Below, one piece after another: positions 44,975 to 52,543 of a DNA stretch of 64,000 bases. Source of the stretch: Caulobacteraceae bacterium (GTDB lineage Bacteria > Pseudomonadota > Alphaproteobacteria > Caulobacterales > Caulobacteraceae). The position numbers were made by a program, and so were the translations under genes. Each line of letters opens with the position of its first letter. Position 1 is the stretch's first letter. The stretch lies in NCBI GenBank assembly GCA_031291645.1, contig JARLIQ010000028.1, positions 1 through 64,000 on the forward strand, written 5' to 3'. The notes beneath the pieces are model-generated. The model was not told the origin of the DNA, did not search any database, and saw only the letters and a program-made list of their open reading frames with translations.

Positions 44975-46506
44975 GCGACGGCTCCCGGCAGGTCGATGGC
45001 CGCGGCCGCCTCGATCACCGCGCCGGTGCGCACAAGGCCGGTGGCGGCCTCGATATCGGGGTGCAGGTGGCGGTCGTTCTCCAGTCTGGGCGACTTGGCG
45101 CGCAGGGCGGCGCGGACGGCTTGGAGCGCGTCGCTGGACGTCAGGGGGCTGTGGAAATCGCAGCCCTGGGCGGCGGTGAGCAGTTCGATGCCGATGACGG
45201 CCGCCGCGTTCCTGGCCATGGGCGCGAGCCGCCGCGCGCCGTGGGCGGCCATGGAGACGTGGTCCTCCTGGTTGGCCGAGGTCGGGATGGAATCGACGCT
45301 GGCCGGATAGGCGGACTGCTTGTTCTCCGAGACCAGCGCCGCCGCCGTCACCTGCGGGATCATGAAGCCGGAGTTCAGCCCCGGCCTGGGGGTCAGGAAG
45401 GCCGGCAGGCCCGACAGCGCCGGGTCGACCAGCATGGCGATCCGCCGCTCGGCCAGGGAGCCGATCTCGCACAGGGTCAGCGCGATCATGTCGGCGGCGA
45501 AGGCCACCGGCTCGGCGTGGAAGTTGCCGCCGGACAGGGCCTCGTCGGTATCGGCGAAGATCAGCGGGTTGTCCGAGACCCCGTTGGCCTCGTCGGCCAG
45601 GGTGGCGGCGGCCTGGCGCAGTACGGTCAGGCACGCGCCCATCACCTGGGGCTGGCAGCGCAGGCAATAGGGGTCCTGGACCCGCTCGTCGTTCTTCAGG
45701 TGGCTGGCGCGGATGGCCGAGCCGGCCATCAGGGCGCGCAGGGCCGCGGCGGTCTCGATCTGTCCGGCGTGGCGGCGCAGCTCGTGGATGCGCGGGTCGA
45801 ACGGCGTGTCCGAACCCTTGGCCGCCTCGGTCGAGAGCGCTCCGGTGACCAGGGCCGACCGGAACAGCACGTCCGCCTCGAACAGGCCGGCCAGGGCGTT
45901 GGCGGTCGAGAACTGGGTGCCGTTGAGCAGGGCCAGGCCCTCCTTGGGCCCGAGCGTCAGGGGCGCGAGGCCGGCCCGGGCCAGGGCCGCCTCGGCCGGC
46001 AGGCGCTCGCCCGCCAGGTCGATCCAGCCGACCCCGATCATCGCCGCGGCCATGTGCGCGAGCGGCGCGAGGTCGCCCGACGCCCCGACCGAGCCCTGGG
46101 CGGGCGTCACGGGCGCCAGGCCCCGCTCGAGCATCGCTTCCAGCATCGCCACGGTGGCGGGGCGCACGCCCGAGGCGCCCTGGCCGAGGCTGGCCAGCTT
46201 CAGCGCCATCATCAGGCGCACGACGGCGGCCGGCGCCGGATCGCCCGTTCCCGCGGCATGGGACAGCACGATGTTGCGCTGCAGGGTCTCCAGGTCGGCG
46301 GCGTCGATGCGCACGCTGGCCAGGCGGCCGAAGCCTGTGTTGATGCCGTAGACCGGCTCGCCCTTGGCCAGGATGCGCTCGATCGCGGCCGCGCTTTCGG
46401 AGATCACCGGGCCGGACAGGGCGTCGAGGCGCGCCCCCGCGCCGCGCCACACCGCGCGCCATTCGGCCAGGCTCACCGCGCCCGGGATCAAGGTCAGCAT
46501 CGTCAT
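44971..46506 (-). CDS. hutH: histidine ammonia-lyase
   Basis: The 511-residue protein is a full-length histidine ammonia-lyase. The Ala-Ser-Gly that forms the MIO cofactor is in [15 protein letters not shown]. Other landmarks are [21 protein letters not shown] and [15 protein letters not shown]-like sequence near NFHAEPVAF. It deaminates histidine to urocanate. The ATG at 46506 is chosen because it overlaps the hutI stop by ATGA; an ATG six bases later is possible. The gene continues into hutG by the same type of overlap. Confidence 0.96.
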
Positions 46507-47708
46507 CGTCCGCTCCACACACGCGCATGGAGCGGATTGAACCCCATGCGATAAACAAGTTCCGCCGGCCGCTCGACGTCCCAGATGGCGAGGTCGCAGG
46601 CCTTGCCGGCCTCCAGCGTCCCGATCTCGGCGAGCAGGCCCAGCGCACGCGCCGCCTCGCGCGTCACGCCGGCCAGGCACTCGTCCACCGTCAGGCGGAA
46701 CAGGGTCGCGGCCATGTTCATCGTCAGCAGCAGGGAGGTCAGCGGCGAGGTGCCGGGGTTGCAGTCGGTGGCCAGCGCCATCGCGACCCCATGGGCGCGC
46801 AGGGCCGCGATCGGCGGCGCCTGGGTCTCGCGCACGAAATAGTAGGCGCCGGGCAGGAGGGTCGCGACGGTCCCGGCCGCGGCCATGGCCTCGATCCCGG
46901 CCGCGTCCAGATACTCCAGATGGTCGGCCGAGAGGGCGCCGAAGCCGGCGGCGAGGGCCGCGCCGTGCTGGTTGGAGAGCTGCTCGGCGTGCAGCTTGAC
47001 CGGCAGGCCGTTGGCCCTGGCCGCCTCGAACACGCGGCGGGTCTGGGCGGGGGTGAAGCCGATGGTCTCGCAGAAGGCGTCGACCGCGTCGGCCAAGCCC
47101 TCGGCGGCGGCTGCCGGGATGATCTCGCGGCAGACCAGGTCGATGTAGCCGTCCGCGTCGCCGGCGAACTCGGGCGGCAGGGCGTGGGCGGCCAGCAGCG
47201 TGGCGCGGATCCGCACCGGCCGCCGGGCGGACAGGTCGCGGGCGGCGCGCAGCGACTTCAGCTCGTCCGCGCTCGACAGGCCATAGCCGGACTTGACCTC
47301 GACGGTCGTCGCGCCCTCGGCGATCAGGGCGTCCAGCCGGGGCAGGGCGGTCTCGACCAGCTGGGCCTGGCTCGCCGCGCGCGTCGCGCGCATGGTCGAG
47401 ACGATGCCGCCGCCGGCGCGGGCGATCTCCTCGTAGGATGCTCCGGCCAGCCGCTGTTCGAACTCGCCGGCGCGGTCGCCGCCGTAGATCAGGTGGGTGT
47501 GGGGGTCGATCAGGCCGGGCGTGATCCAGCGGCCTTCGCAGTCGACGGTCTCGGCCGCCTCGAAGGCCGGCGCTTCATCGGCCGATCCCGCATAGGCGAT
47601 GCGGCCGTCCAGCGCCGCCACGACCCCGGCCTCGACGAGCCCCAGCCCCGGCCGGCCGGCGGCGAGCGTGGCCAGGCGAGCGTTGGTCCAGAGCCGGTCG
47701 CAGCGCAT
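46503..47708 (-). CDS. hutI: imidazolonepropionase
   Basis: The 401-residue amidohydrolase has [18 protein letters not shown] (HxH metal site), [36 protein letters not shown] and DCNPGTSPL, all typical of imidazolonepropionase. It hydrolyses imidazolonepropionate to formimidoylglutamate. The ATG at 47708 ([13 protein letters not shown]) is preferred; the frame is open further upstream through the operator region, which is unlikely to be coding. It is the first gene of the minus-strand hut operon and 85 bp from the divergent hutF start. Confidence 0.95.
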
Positions 47709-47755
47709 GCGCGGGTCCTTGGGCGAGGCGTCGGCGGCCTTGCGACCGCATCCAT

Positions 47756-47769
47756 TATGTATATACATA
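47756..47769. promoter_or_regulatory. probable HutC operator between hutI and hutF
   Basis: The 14-bp sequence TATGTATATACATA is a perfect palindrome and contains TGTATATACA, close to the known HutC/GntR half-site pattern TGTNNNNACA. It is AT-rich inside a GC-rich window. It is 48 bp upstream of the hutI start and 24 bp upstream of the hutF start, so one bound repressor could block both divergent units until urocanate accumulates. Confidence 0.8.
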
Positions 47770-47793
47770 TTGCCAGCACGGAGGTCTTGTCCA

Positions 47794-49194
47794 GTGTCAG
47801 CCGCGGTGAAAATCGACCCCTCCCGATCGGACGGCGAAGGCCGTCTCTGGTTCGAACGGGCGTTGCTGGAGACCGGCTGGGCGGAGGCCGTGCGGCTGAC
47901 CCTGGCCGGCGGGCGCATCGCGGCGGCCCAGGCCGGGGTGCGGCCCGAAGCGGAGGACGAGCGGTGTGGGATCGCCGTTCCAGGTCTCTGCAACCTGCAC
48001 AGCCACGCCTTCCAGCGCGGCATGGCGGGTCTGGCCGAGACCCGCGGGCCGGCCGGCGACGACTTCTGGACCTGGCGCGAGGTGATGTACCGCTTCCTGG
48101 CCGGCCTGACGCCGGAGGCGACCCAGGCGATCGCGGCGCTCGCCTACGCCGAGATGCTGGAGGCCGGCTTCACCCGCGTGGGCGAGTTCCACTATCTGCA
48201 CCACGCGCCGGACGGGCGGGCCTACGACGACCCGGCCGAGCTCGCCGCGCGGATCGCGGCGGCGGCGGGGCAGACGGGGATCGGCCTGACCCTGCTGCCG
48301 GTCTTCTACGCCCATTCCGGTTTTGGCGGCGCGCCGTCCAGCGCGGCCCAGCGGCGGTTCGTCAACGACCTCGACGGCTTCGCCCGCCTGCTGGAGGCGA
48401 GCCGCGCGGCGACCGCCGGCCTCGAGGGCGCGGTGGTGGGCCTCGCGCCCCACAGCCTGCGGGCGGCGACGCCGGACGAGCTTGCCGCGCTGGTCCCGCT
48501 GGCGCAGGGCGGCCCGATCCATATCCACATCGCCGAGCAGACGCGCGAGGTCGAGGACTGCGTTGCCTGGTCGGGCCGCCGGCCGGTCGAATGGTTGCTG
48601 GACGCCGCGCCGGTCGACGCCCGCTGGTGCCTGGTGCATGCGACCCACATGACGCCGGAGGAGACCTTGCGCCTGGCGGCGAGCGGCGCTGTCGCCGGTC
48701 TCTGCCCGATCACCGAGGCCAACCTGGGCGACGGCCTGTTCCCGGCCGGCGCGTTCCTGGCCGCCGGCGGCGCCTTCGGCATAGGCTCGGACTCCAACGT
48801 GCTGATCGACGCCGCCGAGGAACTACGGACCCTGGAATACGGCCAGCGGCTGACGCGGCGCGGCCGCAACCTCCTGGCCGCCGCGGAGGGCGCCTCGACC
48901 GGAGCCGGTCTCTGGCGCGGGGCGCTGGCGGGCGGGGCCCAGGCGCTGGGCGCGCCGGCCGGCGGCCTTCGCGCCGGCGGTCCGGCCGATATCGTCAGTC
49001 TAAGGAGCGACCATCCGGCCCTGGCCGCGCGCGCCGGCGATGCGGTGCTCGACAGCCTGGTCTTCGCGGGCGGCCGCGGCGCGATCGACGGCGTCTGGCG
49101 CGCCGGCCGCAAACGTGTCAGCGACGGACGCCACCACCAGGGCGAGGCCATCCGCGCCCGCTACGGCCAGGTGCTGCGGGAGCTTCTGGCTTGA
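47794..49194 (+). CDS. hutF: formimidoylglutamate deiminase
   Basis: The protein has 466 residues from a GTG at 47794, supported by GGAGG 9 bases upstream. Amidohydrolase motifs are [61 protein letters not shown] and [25 protein letters not shown]. These match HutF, which converts formimidoylglutamate to formylglutamate and ammonia. The presence of HutF together with HutG defines the five-step histidine pathway. Its stop overlaps the hutC start (TTGA). Confidence 0.95.
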
Positions 49195-49913
49195 GCCTCA
49201 CCGACACCGCGTCGCTGCACCAGCGCATCCGGGCCGACATCGAGGCGCGCATCCTCGGCGGCGACTGGCCGCCGGGCCATCGGTTGCCGGTCGAGGCCGA
49301 GCTGATGACCCAGTACGGCTGTTCGCGCATGACGGTGAACAAGGCGGTCTCGGCCCTCGCCGACGCCGGCCTGATCGTGCGCCGCCGCAGGGCCGGCTCG
49401 TTCGTCGCCCGCCCGCGCATCCACTCGGCCGTGCTCGACATCCCCGACATCCAGTCCGAGATCACCGCGCGCGGCGAGGCCTACGCCTTCCGCCTGCTGT
49501 CGGTGCGCCGCCGCGCGCCCGCGCGGGGCGACGCCGACGAGGCTGAGCTTGCCGGCGGCGGTGCGCTCCTGGCGCTGCGCGGCGCGCACCTGGCCTCGGG
49601 GCGGCCCTTCGCGCTGGAGGAGCGGCTGATCAGCCTGCGCGCGGCGCCCGCCGCCGCAGAGGCGGACTTCGCCCTCGTCTCGCCCGGCGCCTGGCTCCTG
49701 GAGCACGTGGCCTGGACCGAGGCGGAAAACCGGATCAGCGCGATCAACGCCGATGGCCCGGTCGCCGAGGCCCTGGCGCTCGACCCGGGCGCCGCCTGCC
49801 TCGTGGTCCGGCGCCGCACCTGGCGCGCCGGCGAGCGGATCACCAACGTGCGACTGGTCTTCCCGGGCGAGGCCTACGAACTGGTCGCGCGCTTCGGGCC
49901 TGGACAAGCGTAG
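49191..49913 (+). CDS. hutC: HutC, GntR-family histidine utilisation repressor
   Basis: The protein has 240 residues from a TTG at 49191, which overlaps the hutF stop and has GGGAG 8 bases upstream. The winged helix-turn-helix reads LPVEAELMTQYGCSRMTVNKAVSALADAGLIVRRRRAGSFVA. The C-terminal UTRA ligand-binding domain follows, with EERLISLRAAPAAAEADF and TNVRLVFPGEAYELVARF. HutC binds urocanate and releases the hut operators. It is coupled to hutF and is therefore autoregulated through the palindrome at 47756-47769. Confidence 0.92.
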   Translation: MSLTDTASLHQRIRADIEARILGGDWPPGHRLPVEAELMTQYGCSRMTVNKAVSALADAGLIVRRRRAGSFVARPRIHSAVLDIPDIQSEITARGEAYAFRLLSVRRRAPARGDADEAELAGGGALLALRGAHLASGRPFALEERLISLRAAPAAAEADFALVSPGAWLLEHVAWTEAENRISAINADGPVAEALALDPGAACLVVRRRTWRAGERITNVRLVFPGEAYELVARFGPGQA

Positions 49914-49918
49914 ACGGA

Positions 49919-50209
49919 TCAGTCGAACAGGCCTTCGAGCCGCCGCGCGCCGTGGATCACCCGGACGATCTCGACCCTGTCGTTCTGGACGCGGTACAGC
50001 GCCAGATAGTCGCCGATGACGAGCATGCGCGCCTCCGGCGCTATTTCGGGGCGGGCCGGTCCAAGGTGGGGATGCTCGGCCAGGTCCTGGCATCGGCCGA
50101 CGATGAGATCGATGAGCAGGTCGGCCGCGGCGGGATTGTCGAGCGCCACGTGCAGCCAGATGTCATCGAGATCGGCGCTGGCCTGCGCAGTCCGGGTGAC
50201 GCGGCTCAC
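49919..50209 (-). CDS. parE: ParE/RelE-superfamily toxin
   Basis: This 96-residue protein has the ParE fold signature: RTAQASADLDDIWLHVALDNPAAADLLIDLIVGRCQDLAEHPHLGPARPEI, then LVIGDYLALYRVQNDRVEIVRVIHGARR. ParE toxins inhibit DNA gyrase and cause growth arrest. The start is a GTG at 50209, 3 bp after the antitoxin stop, so the antitoxin is translated first. The gene ends 5 bp from the convergent hutC stop. Confidence 0.87.
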   Translation of the reverse strand: MSRVTRTAQASADLDDIWLHVALDNPAAADLLIDLIVGRCQDLAEHPHLGPARPEIAPEARMLVIGDYLALYRVQNDRVEIVRVIHGARRLEGLFD

Positions 50210-50212
50210 GGG

Positions 50213-50494
50213 TCAGCGGTCGGTGGCCTGCCGGGCGGCAAGCCGCTCGCGACCTCGGCGCTTGATGTCCTCGGCGTCCAGCGGCGCGCTCTCGCCGCTA
50301 CCTGTCCCGTCCCGCCAGAGCCGGCGCAGCTCTTCGATCGCGACGGCCCGGCCTTGGCGAGCCTGTTTCCAGGCGCGGAGGGCGTCGCGGATGACTTCGC
50401 TGGTGGACGCATAGTCGCCGGCCGCGATGGCCTCTCGGATGTCGGCGGCGAACTCGGGCGTCAGCGCGATGCTCAGCTTTTCGACCGTGGCCAC
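50213..50494 (-). CDS. parD: ParD-type antitoxin
   Basis: This 93-residue protein has the ribbon-helix-helix start EKLSIALTPEFAADIREAIAAGDYASTSEVIRDALRAWKQARQ, followed by a flexible C-terminus (RLWRDGTGSGESAPLDAEDIKRRGRERLAARQ) that would wrap the ParE toxin. It starts at a GTG with GGGAGG 5 bases upstream. The RHH domain should bind the dyad at 50509-50527 and repress the pair. Confidence 0.88.
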   Translation of the reverse strand: MATVEKLSIALTPEFAADIREAIAAGDYASTSEVIRDALRAWKQARQGRAVAIEELRRLWRDGTGSGESAPLDAEDIKRRGRERLAARQATDR

Positions 50495-50527: not shown

Positions 50528-50657
50528 ATGTGCGCCTTGCGATGTCAGGCGTCCAGGTTCGAGGCGGACGCGGCGTGCCTTCCGGAACCTCCGCCCTTGC
50601 GCCTGCGGCCCGGTTTGGAGTACGAGCTTGCCTGAAACGCAGGACCACGCGGCGGAA

Positions 50658-50801
50658 ATGACCTCCCGAGTCGACGCTTCTGAAATGCGCGGCCAAGCCC
50701 TCCAGGGCCTGGGCGGCGCTTTCGCGCGCGTTTCGAAAACCATGACCATTGCCATGATGATTACCCCCTGCCGGCCAGGAGCGGGGCGAACGCCGATTTA
50801 G
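50658..50801 (+). CDS. predicted leader peptide of an amino-acid attenuator (two possible starts)
   Basis: A short frame ends at TAG 50799-50801. The shortest form begins at the ATG at 50742 and encodes MTIAMMITPCRPGAGRTPI; in-frame ATGs at 50685 and 50658 give 38 and 47 residues. The stretch TMTIAMMIT holds three Thr, three Met and two Ile codons in nine, a control-codon cluster. It is followed within 30 bases by terminator-type hairpins and then by two small genes. No strong ribosome site precedes any of the three starts, so the true start is uncertain. The codon mix suggests sensing of Thr/Ile/Met charging. Confidence 0.55.
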   Translation: MTSRVDASEMRGQALQGLGGAFARVSKTMTIAMMITPCRPGAGRTPI

Positions 50802-50827
50802 GCGCGCCAGCGGATCGCAAGATCTGG

Positions 50828-50858
50828 AACCCCGCTCCCGAAAGGCGCGGGGTTTTTT
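50828..50858 (+). terminator. intrinsic terminator/attenuator with competing antiterminator
   Basis: AACCCCGC (50828-50835) pairs with GCGGGGTT (50847-50854) across an 11-nt loop and is followed by a run of T (50853-50858), a standard intrinsic terminator. GGAGCGGGG at 50778-50786, inside the leader frame, is fully complementary to CCCCGCTCC at 50830-50838, so an antiterminator can form instead. CCCCC at 50764-50768 can pair with GGGG at 50783-50786 and would sequester that strand. The three alternatives match segments 1:2, 2:3 and 3:4 of ribosome-mediated attenuators. Confidence 0.8.
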
Positions 50859-50905
50859 GTTGCGCCCGCGCCGCCATCCCTTCCCTGCAAGTCACGAGGA
50901 CGCCA

Positions 50906-51268
50906 GTGCCCAACCCCCTTTCCTTCGACAACGCCGCCGTCGCCTCAGCCACGCGACAGTTCGCCAACCGGCTCGGCGCCGACCGCCGCTTCGACAGCGT
51001 CGAGCGCATCGAGGTCACGCTCAGCGGCCGCGGCCCGATCGAGCGGCTGTTCGCGGTCGAGGCCGCGCTGCTGGCCCACTGGCCCGAGGGCCTACGCCGC
51101 CCGCCCCACGACCTGGTCTCCTCGACCGGCGAGCTGTCGCCGGCGGACGAGCAGGCCGGCCTGACGCTCCGCGCGTTCGATCCCGAGGGCGCGGTGGTGC
51201 TGCGGGAGGTCTACGACATCGGCGCCGCCGGAAAGCCGCTCAAAGCCGCCGCGCCGACCCATGGCTGA
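50906..51268 (+). CDS. small unrecognised protein, possibly LeuA/CimA-type allosteric-domain-like
   Basis: This 120-residue protein starts at a GTG with GAGGA 5 bases upstream. It is soluble, with an alpha/beta pattern: FDSVERIEVTLSGRGPIERLFAVEAALLAHWPEGL, then AGLTLRAFDPEGAVVLREVYDIGAAG. The G-x-GP-x3-(L/A) turn and later beta strands loosely recall the C-terminal dimerisation domain of isopropylmalate/citramalate synthases, but I could not confirm this. It is the first gene behind the attenuator and overlaps the ACT-domain gene by 8 bp, so both are cotranslated. Confidence 0.7.
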   Translation: MPNPLSFDNAAVASATRQFANRLGADRRFDSVERIEVTLSGRGPIERLFAVEAALLAHWPEGLRRPPHDLVSSTGELSPADEQAGLTLRAFDPEGAVVLREVYDIGAAGKPLKAAAPTHG

Positions 51269-51560
51269 CGGCGTCTATCCCGCGCCGGCGGAGGCGCCGC
51301 TTACGGTCGAGACCGCCCGGCTGTTCCTGGTCGACACCCTGGATGCGCCCGACGCGCTCTTGAAGGTGCTGTCGGTGTTCGCGGTCCAGCAGGTGGCCCT
51401 GGCCACGGTCGATTTCGCCGCCGCCGCCGACGGCGGCCAGGTGCGCATCGAGGCGCGCCGGCTGAGCGCCGAGCGGGCCCAGCATCTGTCCGAGCGGCTG
51501 CGATCCGTCCCGGTGGTGCGCGGCGTCTCGGTCGGCTGGCGAATGCGGACCGCAAGCTAG
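51261..51560 (+). CDS. stand-alone ACT-domain protein, acetolactate-synthase small-subunit-like
   Basis: This 99-residue protein fits a single ACT domain: beta strand ETARLFLVDTLDAPDALLKVLSVFAVQQVALATVDFAAA, then GGQVRIEARRLSAERAQHLSERLRSVPVVRGVSVGW. The pattern is closest to IlvM/IlvN small subunits of acetolactate synthase, which bind branched-chain amino acids. No large catalytic subunit is encoded beside it. The gene overlaps the preceding small gene by 8 bp and the convergent MarR-GNAT gene by 4 bp. It could regulate a distant enzyme or the partner protein. Confidence 0.75.
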   Translation: MADGVYPAPAEAPLTVETARLFLVDTLDAPDALLKVLSVFAVQQVALATVDFAAAADGGQVRIEARRLSAERAQHLSERLRSVPVVRGVSVGWRMRTAS

Positions 51561-52468
51561 AACCTGAGGCGCCAGGTCTCCTCCGCGACATGGGCGCCCA
51601 TGTCGGGATGGGGTTGGCTCTCGACCAGCTGGAACCCCTGGGCGGCGTAGATGGCCCGTGCGGCGGTCAGCAGGCTCCGGGTCCACAGGCTCACCCCGCC
51701 GTAGCCGCACGTCCGGGCGAAGTCCACGCACTCGCGCACCAGGCGCCGGCCGAGGCCCAGCCCGCGGGCCGCCGGCTCGACCAGCAGGAGGCGAAGCTTG
51801 GCCTCGTCGCCCTCGCCCTTGACCAGGAAGACCGAACCCAGCCGCTGGCCGCCGCGCTCGGCGATCCAGCACTGCTCGCGCGCCGGATCGAAATCCTCGA
51901 TGAAGTCGGCGGCGATCCGCGCGACCAGGGCCTCGAACCGCTCGTCCCAGCCGTATTCCCGGGCGTAGAGCGTCCCGTGCCGTTCGATCACCCAGCCCAT
52001 GTCGCCGACCCGGTGCGGGCGCAGGATCACCGCGTCGGCCGGCTCGGCCTGCAGCAGCCGCTCCACCTCGGCCATGGCCGTGGTCAGCAGCTCGCGCTCC
52101 GGCGCCGACAGGGCGGCGATCATCCCCTCTACCGCACCCTCGGCCGCCAGGCGCAGCGCCTGATAGGCCCGCCGGCCGTCGTCGGTGAGGGCGAGGGCGA
52201 CGCTGCGGCCATCCTCGGCCGAGGGGGCGCGGCTGGTCAGGCCCTCGCGCTCGAACCGCTTGAGGATGCGGCTGAGGTAGCCGGCGTCGAGGCCAGTGCG
52301 GGCGGCGACCGCCTTGGGCGCGACGCCGTCCGGCGCCTGGGCGATCTCATAAAGGACGCGCATCTCGGCTAGGCTGAACGGCTCGCCCAGGTGGGCCTCG
52401 TCCAGGGCGCCGATCTGGCAGGTGTAGAAGCGGTTGAAGCGGCGGATGGCCGCGACGGTCTCGGACAT
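51557..52468 (-). CDS. MarR-GNAT fusion: transcription regulator with acetyltransferase domain
   Basis: The protein has 303 residues from the ATG at 52468, which has GAGG 6 bases upstream. Residues ~1-140 form a MarR winged helix (LAEMRVLYEIAQAPDGVAPKAVAARTGLDAGYLSRILKRFEREGL, wing SAEDGRSVALALT). Residues ~155-303 are a GNAT acetyltransferase with the acetyl-CoA loop VEPAARGLGLGRRLVRECVDFAR and the end region LLTAARAIYAAQGFQLVE. Such fusions are a known domain combination. The target of acetylation and of DNA binding is unknown. Confidence 0.9.
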   Translation of the reverse strand: MSETVAAIRRFNRFYTCQIGALDEAHLGEPFSLAEMRVLYEIAQAPDGVAPKAVAARTGLDAGYLSRILKRFEREGLTSRAPSAEDGRSVALALTDDGRRAYQALRLAAEGAVEGMIAALSAPERELLTTAMAEVERLLQAEPADAVILRPHRVGDMGWVIERHGTLYAREYGWDERFEALVARIAADFIEDFDPAREQCWIAERGGQRLGSVFLVKGEGDEAKLRLLLVEPAARGLGLGRRLVRECVDFARTCGYGGVSLWTRSLLTAARAIYAAQGFQLVESQPHPDMGAHVAEETWRLRF

Positions 52469-52543
52469 GCTGGGCCTCGCGAAGGCTCCAGCTCGCCGCA
52501 TTTGCTTGACGCAGTCAACTACTTTGACGGGGCGGAAGCCGCC

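Follow-up and report, generated by a model that had tools for sequence, protein, structure and literature searches.

Attenuators are usually regarded as switches for biosynthetic enzymes. The window analysed here, a stretch of 64,000 nucleotides from a Caulobacteraceae bacterium, contains an attenuator-like leader followed by two small genes and no adjacent catalytic gene: ORF1 (50906 to 51268, plus strand, GTG start, 120 aa) and ORF2 (51261 to 51560, plus strand, 99 aa), which overlap by 8 nt. This arrangement raises two questions: whether the leader is a genuine ribosome-mediated switch, and what such a switch would control.

The leader frame (47 codons, plus strand, 50658 to 50801) runs from an ATG at 50658 to a TAG at 50799-50801 and was read to end in TMTIAMMITPCRPGAGRTPI before the stop codon; in a longer version, the C-terminal part of the 47-codon peptide is MTIAMMITPCRPGAGRTPI, again up to the stop. 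The start at 50658 is plausible, since an in-frame ATG giving an open leader of 41-51 codons was present at 24 of 24 loci, extra copies included, whereas the other two frames were open equally far in only 8 of 48 cases. The part of the leader that can be aligned between genomes starts at ATG 50742, with the putative sensor codons ATG ACC ATT GCC ATG ATG ATT ACC (M T I A M M I T; 50742 to 50765, plus strand). Upstream of the leader a putative promoter, TTGCGC-N14-GGAGTA (50597 to 50622, plus strand), was recognized; by a loose consensus picked by eye, this motif occurs at 6 of 19 loci, one of them that of the window, whereas shuffled sequences would be expected to give 0.14 and gave 2 at most.

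The cluster of Met, Thr and Ile codons pointed out in the preliminary description was confirmed. Sensor positions were taken as those at which a ribosome, if stalled, would not cover region 2 (see below); in 17 non-redundant leaders these positions hold 31 Ile, 30 Thr and 26 Met codons out of 121, or 72% I/T/M, the background codon shares being 3.8%, 4.3% and 1.5%, respectively. The Ile codons at these positions are ATT in 29 of 31 cases, compared with one ATT and 80 ATC in the genes of the window (Fisher p 2e-23), and such rare codons suit a sensor role. Part of the reason for AT-rich codons here could be that they prevent the RNA from folding, and there may be internal starts among the Met codons. 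One Caulobacter subgroup has the cluster reduced to one or two Ile codons and one Thr codon. A short leader with a conserved frame and an I/T/M cluster, predicted to be translated, was thus found in 18 genomes. Judging from the codons, Ile is likely to be the main signal, Thr has about an even chance of being sensed, and a role for Met is doubtful.

Region 2, GGAGCGGGG (50778 to 50786, plus strand), lies inside the leader frame and is the candidate antiterminator partner of region 3. Its exact 9-bp complement, CCCCGCTCC (region 3, 50830-50838), forms the left arm of a predicted intrinsic terminator (50828 to 50858, plus strand), the right arm of which, GGCGCGGGG (region 4, 50844-50852), is followed by six T residues at 50853-50858. 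Both the terminator with its T-run and the complementary stretch inside the leader were therefore present as first described. The three alternative pairings proposed at the same time, 1:2, 2:3 and 3:4, were also recovered: the MFE fold of 50735-50870 (z -2.4) contains the 1:2 pause or protector hairpin (50764 to 50784, plus strand) together with the 3:4 hairpin, and the 2:3 duplex reaches -21.5 kcal/mol, versus -12.5 +/- 2.9 kcal/mol for base-shuffled leaders, 0.7% of which were equally strong. The predicted antiterminator (2:3) and terminator (3:4) are mutually exclusive.

The same elements were followed in other loci. The 2:3 duplex falls within the best 5% of shuffles at 12 of 21 loci and outside it at the remaining 9. 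In an alignment of 14 genomes, 81% of the cells of the 2:3 antiterminator were paired, against 31-58% in slid versions, and no compensatory change or covariation supporting this pairing was found in that alignment. A GATC-GCAA-GATC hairpin (50813 to 50824, plus strand) lies between regions 2 and 3, with 96% of its cells paired; for the terminator and GATC hairpin together the value was 93.8% (slid controls, 41-54%), and three pairs showed changes on both sides. The distance from the leader stop to region 3 is 26-49 nt in the 18 genomes, mostly 29-34 nt.

Other foldings were seen around the terminator. A long outer stem, pairing 50800-50820 with 50859-50877, encloses the terminator and uses bases past the T-run, so that it can form only in read-through RNA; its cognate arms gave -20.7 kcal/mol, versus -17.1 kcal/mol for arms swapped between genomes (p 1e-5). 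A hairpin sequestering the Shine-Dalgarno (SD) sequence before ORF1 was also looked for; its folding was no better than that of shuffles and was weak in the window. An anti-SD GGUCC stands opposite the ORF1 SD AGGACC in most relatives (L163, 3629-3680, and its relatives), which would hint at translational control.

Ribosome-mediated attenuation at this locus is very likely on these grounds. The ribosome footprint is of known size, and it was used with the leader coordinates to derive the stall geometry: a ribosome stalled at 50757-50765 would free 50778-50786, and a ribosome at the stop codon would cover part of it. When charged tRNA-Ile, tRNA-Thr and tRNA-Met are ample, the ribosome would reach the stop at 50799 and cover region 2, and the 3:4 terminator would form. 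When these tRNAs are short, the ribosome would stall at the ATG ATG ATT ACC cluster, region 2 would pair with region 3, and RNA polymerase would read through into ORF1 and ORF2.

The claim that only regulatory-type proteins follow the switch held for both genes, and the assignment of ORF1 could be sharpened. ORF2 is predicted to be a stand-alone ACT domain resembling the small subunit of acetohydroxyacid synthase (AHAS): its profile matched PDB 2f1f (E. coli IlvH) with E 2.7e-5, and its model (pLDDT 85.3) has an ACT fold, with a best Z of 13.7 to a plant AHAS regulatory subunit. The AHAS small subunits IlvM, IlvN and IlvH share with ORF2 this fold and a detectable profile similarity; unlike them, ORF2 stays below the family cut-offs (15.2 of 27 bits for Pfam ACT_5, and no match in NCBIfam), has no large subunit adjacent and lacks the RG-[YF] signature, which was absent from 16 of 16 ORF2 rows and present in every IlvM and IlvN row. 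The two E. coli reference rows of the signature alignment (EcIlvH and EcIlvM) were excluded from the tree and profile comparisons.

For ORF1 the AlphaFold model (pLDDT 78.7) points to a stand-alone ASB-like domain. The fold matched the ASB of L-serine dehydratases (Z 11.5, rmsd 3.7, 112 residues aligned; Z 11.3, rmsd 2.7, 107 aligned) and that of M. tuberculosis phosphoglycerate dehydrogenase (PGDH; Z 9.0, rmsd 3.3, 109 aligned), the first unrelated row having Z 7.5, and the Foldseek E value was 3.5e-5. At the sequence level, the ORF1 profile found 2iaf in the PDB (E 0.0014) and also retrieves the SdaA genes of relatives; ORF1 itself remained below the Pfam SDH_beta cut-off (13.1 of 26 bits, E 0.12; best relative, E 1e-4). 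ORF1 has the fold and a short sequence stretch in common with the ASB of Fe-S L-serine dehydratase and type I PGDH, but it is a stand-alone protein of 120 aa, with a catalytic domain neither attached nor adjacent. An assignment as another ACT domain was rejected, ORF1 having no profile similarity to ACT proteins and an ASB fold; a by-eye guess of a LeuA-type regulatory domain was supported neither by Pfam nor by the fold search. In other genomes the ORF1 slot is occupied by a protein of the ACT kind, which is a homologue of ORF2 (hhalign 97%) and bears no relation to the ASB-type ORF1.

Analysis of 148 genomes of the order gave a strong match to the ORF2 profile (E at most 1e-24) in 18, all of them Caulobacteraceae and belonging to six genera, among them Caulobacter and Phenylobacterium; ORF2 as a lone query had given no match in the first scan of the genome contigs. 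Named loci with the operon include those of Phenylobacterium sp. Root700, P. aquaticum and Caulobacter sp. CCUG 60055. Each of the 18 genomes has the leader frame, the GATC-loop-GATC hairpin and the terminator just ahead of its ACT gene; conservation in relatives, on which the preliminary description had staked its reading beforehand, was thus observed. Because the frame, the terminator and the pairing recur in 17 other genomes, the arrangement is beyond chance. A class-wide sample of 289 genomes contained one weaker ORF2-profile match elsewhere (1e-11), and in G172, of another family, a solitary ACT gene lacks such a leader. One genome (G055) carries two near-copies of the operon (L039 and L040), the second incomplete where it runs past the contig end; no IlvN was seen in this genome.

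The gene neighbourhoods vary among the lineages read, and the leader is therefore the constant neighbour. The window has a ParD-ParE type toxin-antitoxin pair directly upstream of the leader (49919-50494, minus strand), preceded at 46503-49913 by histidine-utilisation-like genes (enzyme names assigned by eye) and a GntR/UTRA regulator of HutC type; downstream, at 51557-52501, a MarR-type DNA-binding domain is fused to a GNAT acetyltransferase. Close Caulobacter copies of the ACT-ACT type, the only type compared, gave dN/dS values of 0.02-0.40 after exclusion of two values over 2 that came from misaligned lengths, indicating that ACT-ACT-type proteins are under purifying selection. No description of the operon was found in the part of the literature searched, and this conserved combination of a switch with small proteins is apparently undescribed so far.

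The origin of the switch was approached with a covariance model built from these leaders and run over the 148 genomes. All 21 matches above 60 bits precede genes of the ORF1/ORF2 type, many of them by construction, having been used to train the model. Three of the 21 are extra loci: two Caulobacter genomes (G056 and G070) have a second attenuator, with a leader ending in ALLLTVLITAWP.GTGRTRAS and a stop codon, which precedes an ASB-like gene alone, and a third genome (G047) has an extra attenuator before an ACT-type ORF1. The next matches, at 51-39 bits, are independent of the training and lie nearly all in other families, with one in the Caulobacteraceae; 9 of 11 inspected stand directly before ilvD or ilvC, and most of the loci read through contain an operon (ilvD-)ilvC-ilvG-ilvM-(isopropylmalate/citramalate synthase-like). 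At the other two (G007:C88 and G131:C1:3337592) no ilv gene lies directly downstream, the match in G007:C88 lying where an aminotransferase (ilvE-like) gene ends. The window's own genome (G000) gave one strong match, which is this locus, and two weaker ones.

Since the RNA model of these leaders also finds leaders before ilv operons, we infer that the switch in the window is an ilv-type attenuator, now standing before regulatory domains alone, without catalytic genes. The leaders of the ilvD-ilvC-ilvG-ilvM operons in other Caulobacterales are recognised by the same RNA model and resemble it in leader codons and spacing as well as in region 2 and the terminator; they differ in being Leu/Val-rich (those read before ilvD or ilvC are rich in Leu, Val and Ile, for example one ending in LLLLVLVLLITSSITGVA and a stop codon), in lacking, where they were read, a clear GATC hairpin, and in preceding enzymes. 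A true IlvM (over 75 bits) and the small operon never occurred together in one genome; this mutual exclusion is only suggestive (hypergeometric 0.05), the genomes being related to each other.

Known leaders of enteric bacteria follow the same plan: the enterobacterial thr and ilvGMEDA leaders have Thr and Ile codons and then a pairing region inside the leader, and their operons encode enzymes. The window leader is distinct from the enterobacterial thr leader, scoring 13.7 bits against the 55-bit cut-off of Thr_leader (Rfam RF00506), and no Rfam leader passed its gathering threshold (Leu_leader, 17.1 of 50 bits). The ilvBN attenuator of Caulobacter crescentus (Tarleton 1994; described in PMC4117421) resembles the present one in its leader peptide with branched-chain codons, its terminator, the bacterial family and the logic; it differs by its leader and by controlling both the catalytic and the regulatory AHAS genes.

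An enzyme on which the two proteins might act was looked for in the window's own genome. The preliminary description had suggested an AHAS large subunit lacking its small subunit, which was not borne out: only one AHAS exceeds the family cut-off (G000:C104:14902-16593), it adjoins IlvN, and it is preceded by a separate attenuator, of a type known from C. crescentus (PMC4117421), whose leader reads MRKALLVLIRRPTTV up to the stop codon, so that an orphan AHAS catalytic subunit was rejected as partner. The match of this genome's SerA to the PGDH family is full-length. L-serine dehydratase SdaA (PF03315) was not found in this assembly (97% complete) and was present in 16 of the 18 genomes searched; the idea that ORF1 supplies the regulatory half which a local serine dehydratase lacks was therefore rejected. 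In this search, which covered AHAS, SerA and SdaA, no enzyme was seen to be short of such domains.

The leader, the alternative pairings, the terminator, their conservation, the predicted domain folds and the absence of adjacent catalytic genes can all be read from sequence comparison, and the best explanation is probably that two genes for stand-alone domains of allosteric type, ASB-like in ORF1 and ACT in ORF2, form an operon under the control of an ilv-type ribosome-mediated attenuator. An ordinary terminator, with the upstream frame untranslated and the pairing fortuitous in GC-rich DNA, is very improbable: GC-rich repeats of the kind GCGGGG/CCCCGC abound and the duplexes of several relatives are unexceptional against shuffles, but the reading frame, the sensor codons and the spacing from stop to terminator are conserved in 18 genomes, and the same architecture recurs before ilvD and ilvC. 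The locus could also be what is left of an ancestral ilvD-C-G-M operon, the enzymes having moved or been lost and the proteins now doing little. The presence of a homologous attenuator ahead of ilvDCGM, both in other families and in a single Caulobacteraceae genus, the separate occurrence of the small operon and true IlvM, and the loss from ORF2 of the RG-[YF] signature of IlvM and IlvN agree with such a remnant; the low dN/dS of the Caulobacter copies, conservation in six genera, the second attenuated copy with an ASB-like gene in two Caulobacter genomes, and an ASB-like ORF1 not seen in the ilvDCGM operons read make it unlikely.

Two further alternatives concern the function of the proteins. 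Whether they regulate an amino-acid enzyme in trans is about an even question, judged from their predicted folds; the two domains would be small-molecule binders that tune an enzyme of the Thr, Ile or branched-chain pathway, one example being additional regulatory subunits of AHAS type that the cell produces only when starved. That last role is one specific form of the best explanation: the pair would be produced during Ile/Thr starvation, join the canonical AHAS (IlvB) as additional regulatory subunits and relieve its feedback inhibition by valine and leucine. ORF2 is nearest to AHAS small subunits, the genome has a single AHAS, IlvBN, under its own attenuator, and the attenuator of the window is kin to those of ilv operons; yet the missing RG-[YF] signature and the failure of ORF2 at the AHAS family cut-offs, as well as an ORF1 that is ASB-like and not AHAS-related, leave this role doubtful. 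A split ASB-ACT module that targets L-serine dehydratase or PGDH, or descends from one of them, and that links serine/threonine use to Ile supply would explain why the best matches of ORF1 are the ASB domains of SdaA and PGDH and why the gene order equals the domain order of type I PGDH, ASB and then ACT (PMC6300728). It is improbable in view of the full-length family match of the genome's own SerA, the failure to find SdaA in that genome, the ACT domain in the ORF1 slot of other genomes, and an ORF2 sequence closer to AHAS-type ACT.

In many genomes of Caulobacter and Phenylobacterium the attenuator has been retained with nothing but stand-alone regulatory domains to control, and the first gene behind it is exchangeable, encoding an ASB-like or an ACT protein depending on the genome. 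We propose tentatively, at somewhat less than even confidence, that free-standing ASB and ACT modules, exchangeable between genomes and each placed behind an ilv-derived attenuator, are induced by starvation and reset the feedback of an amino-acid enzyme in trans. If it is true that these proteins reset enzyme feedback in starvation, they would constitute an inducible layer of allosteric subunits, a regulation of regulators alone.
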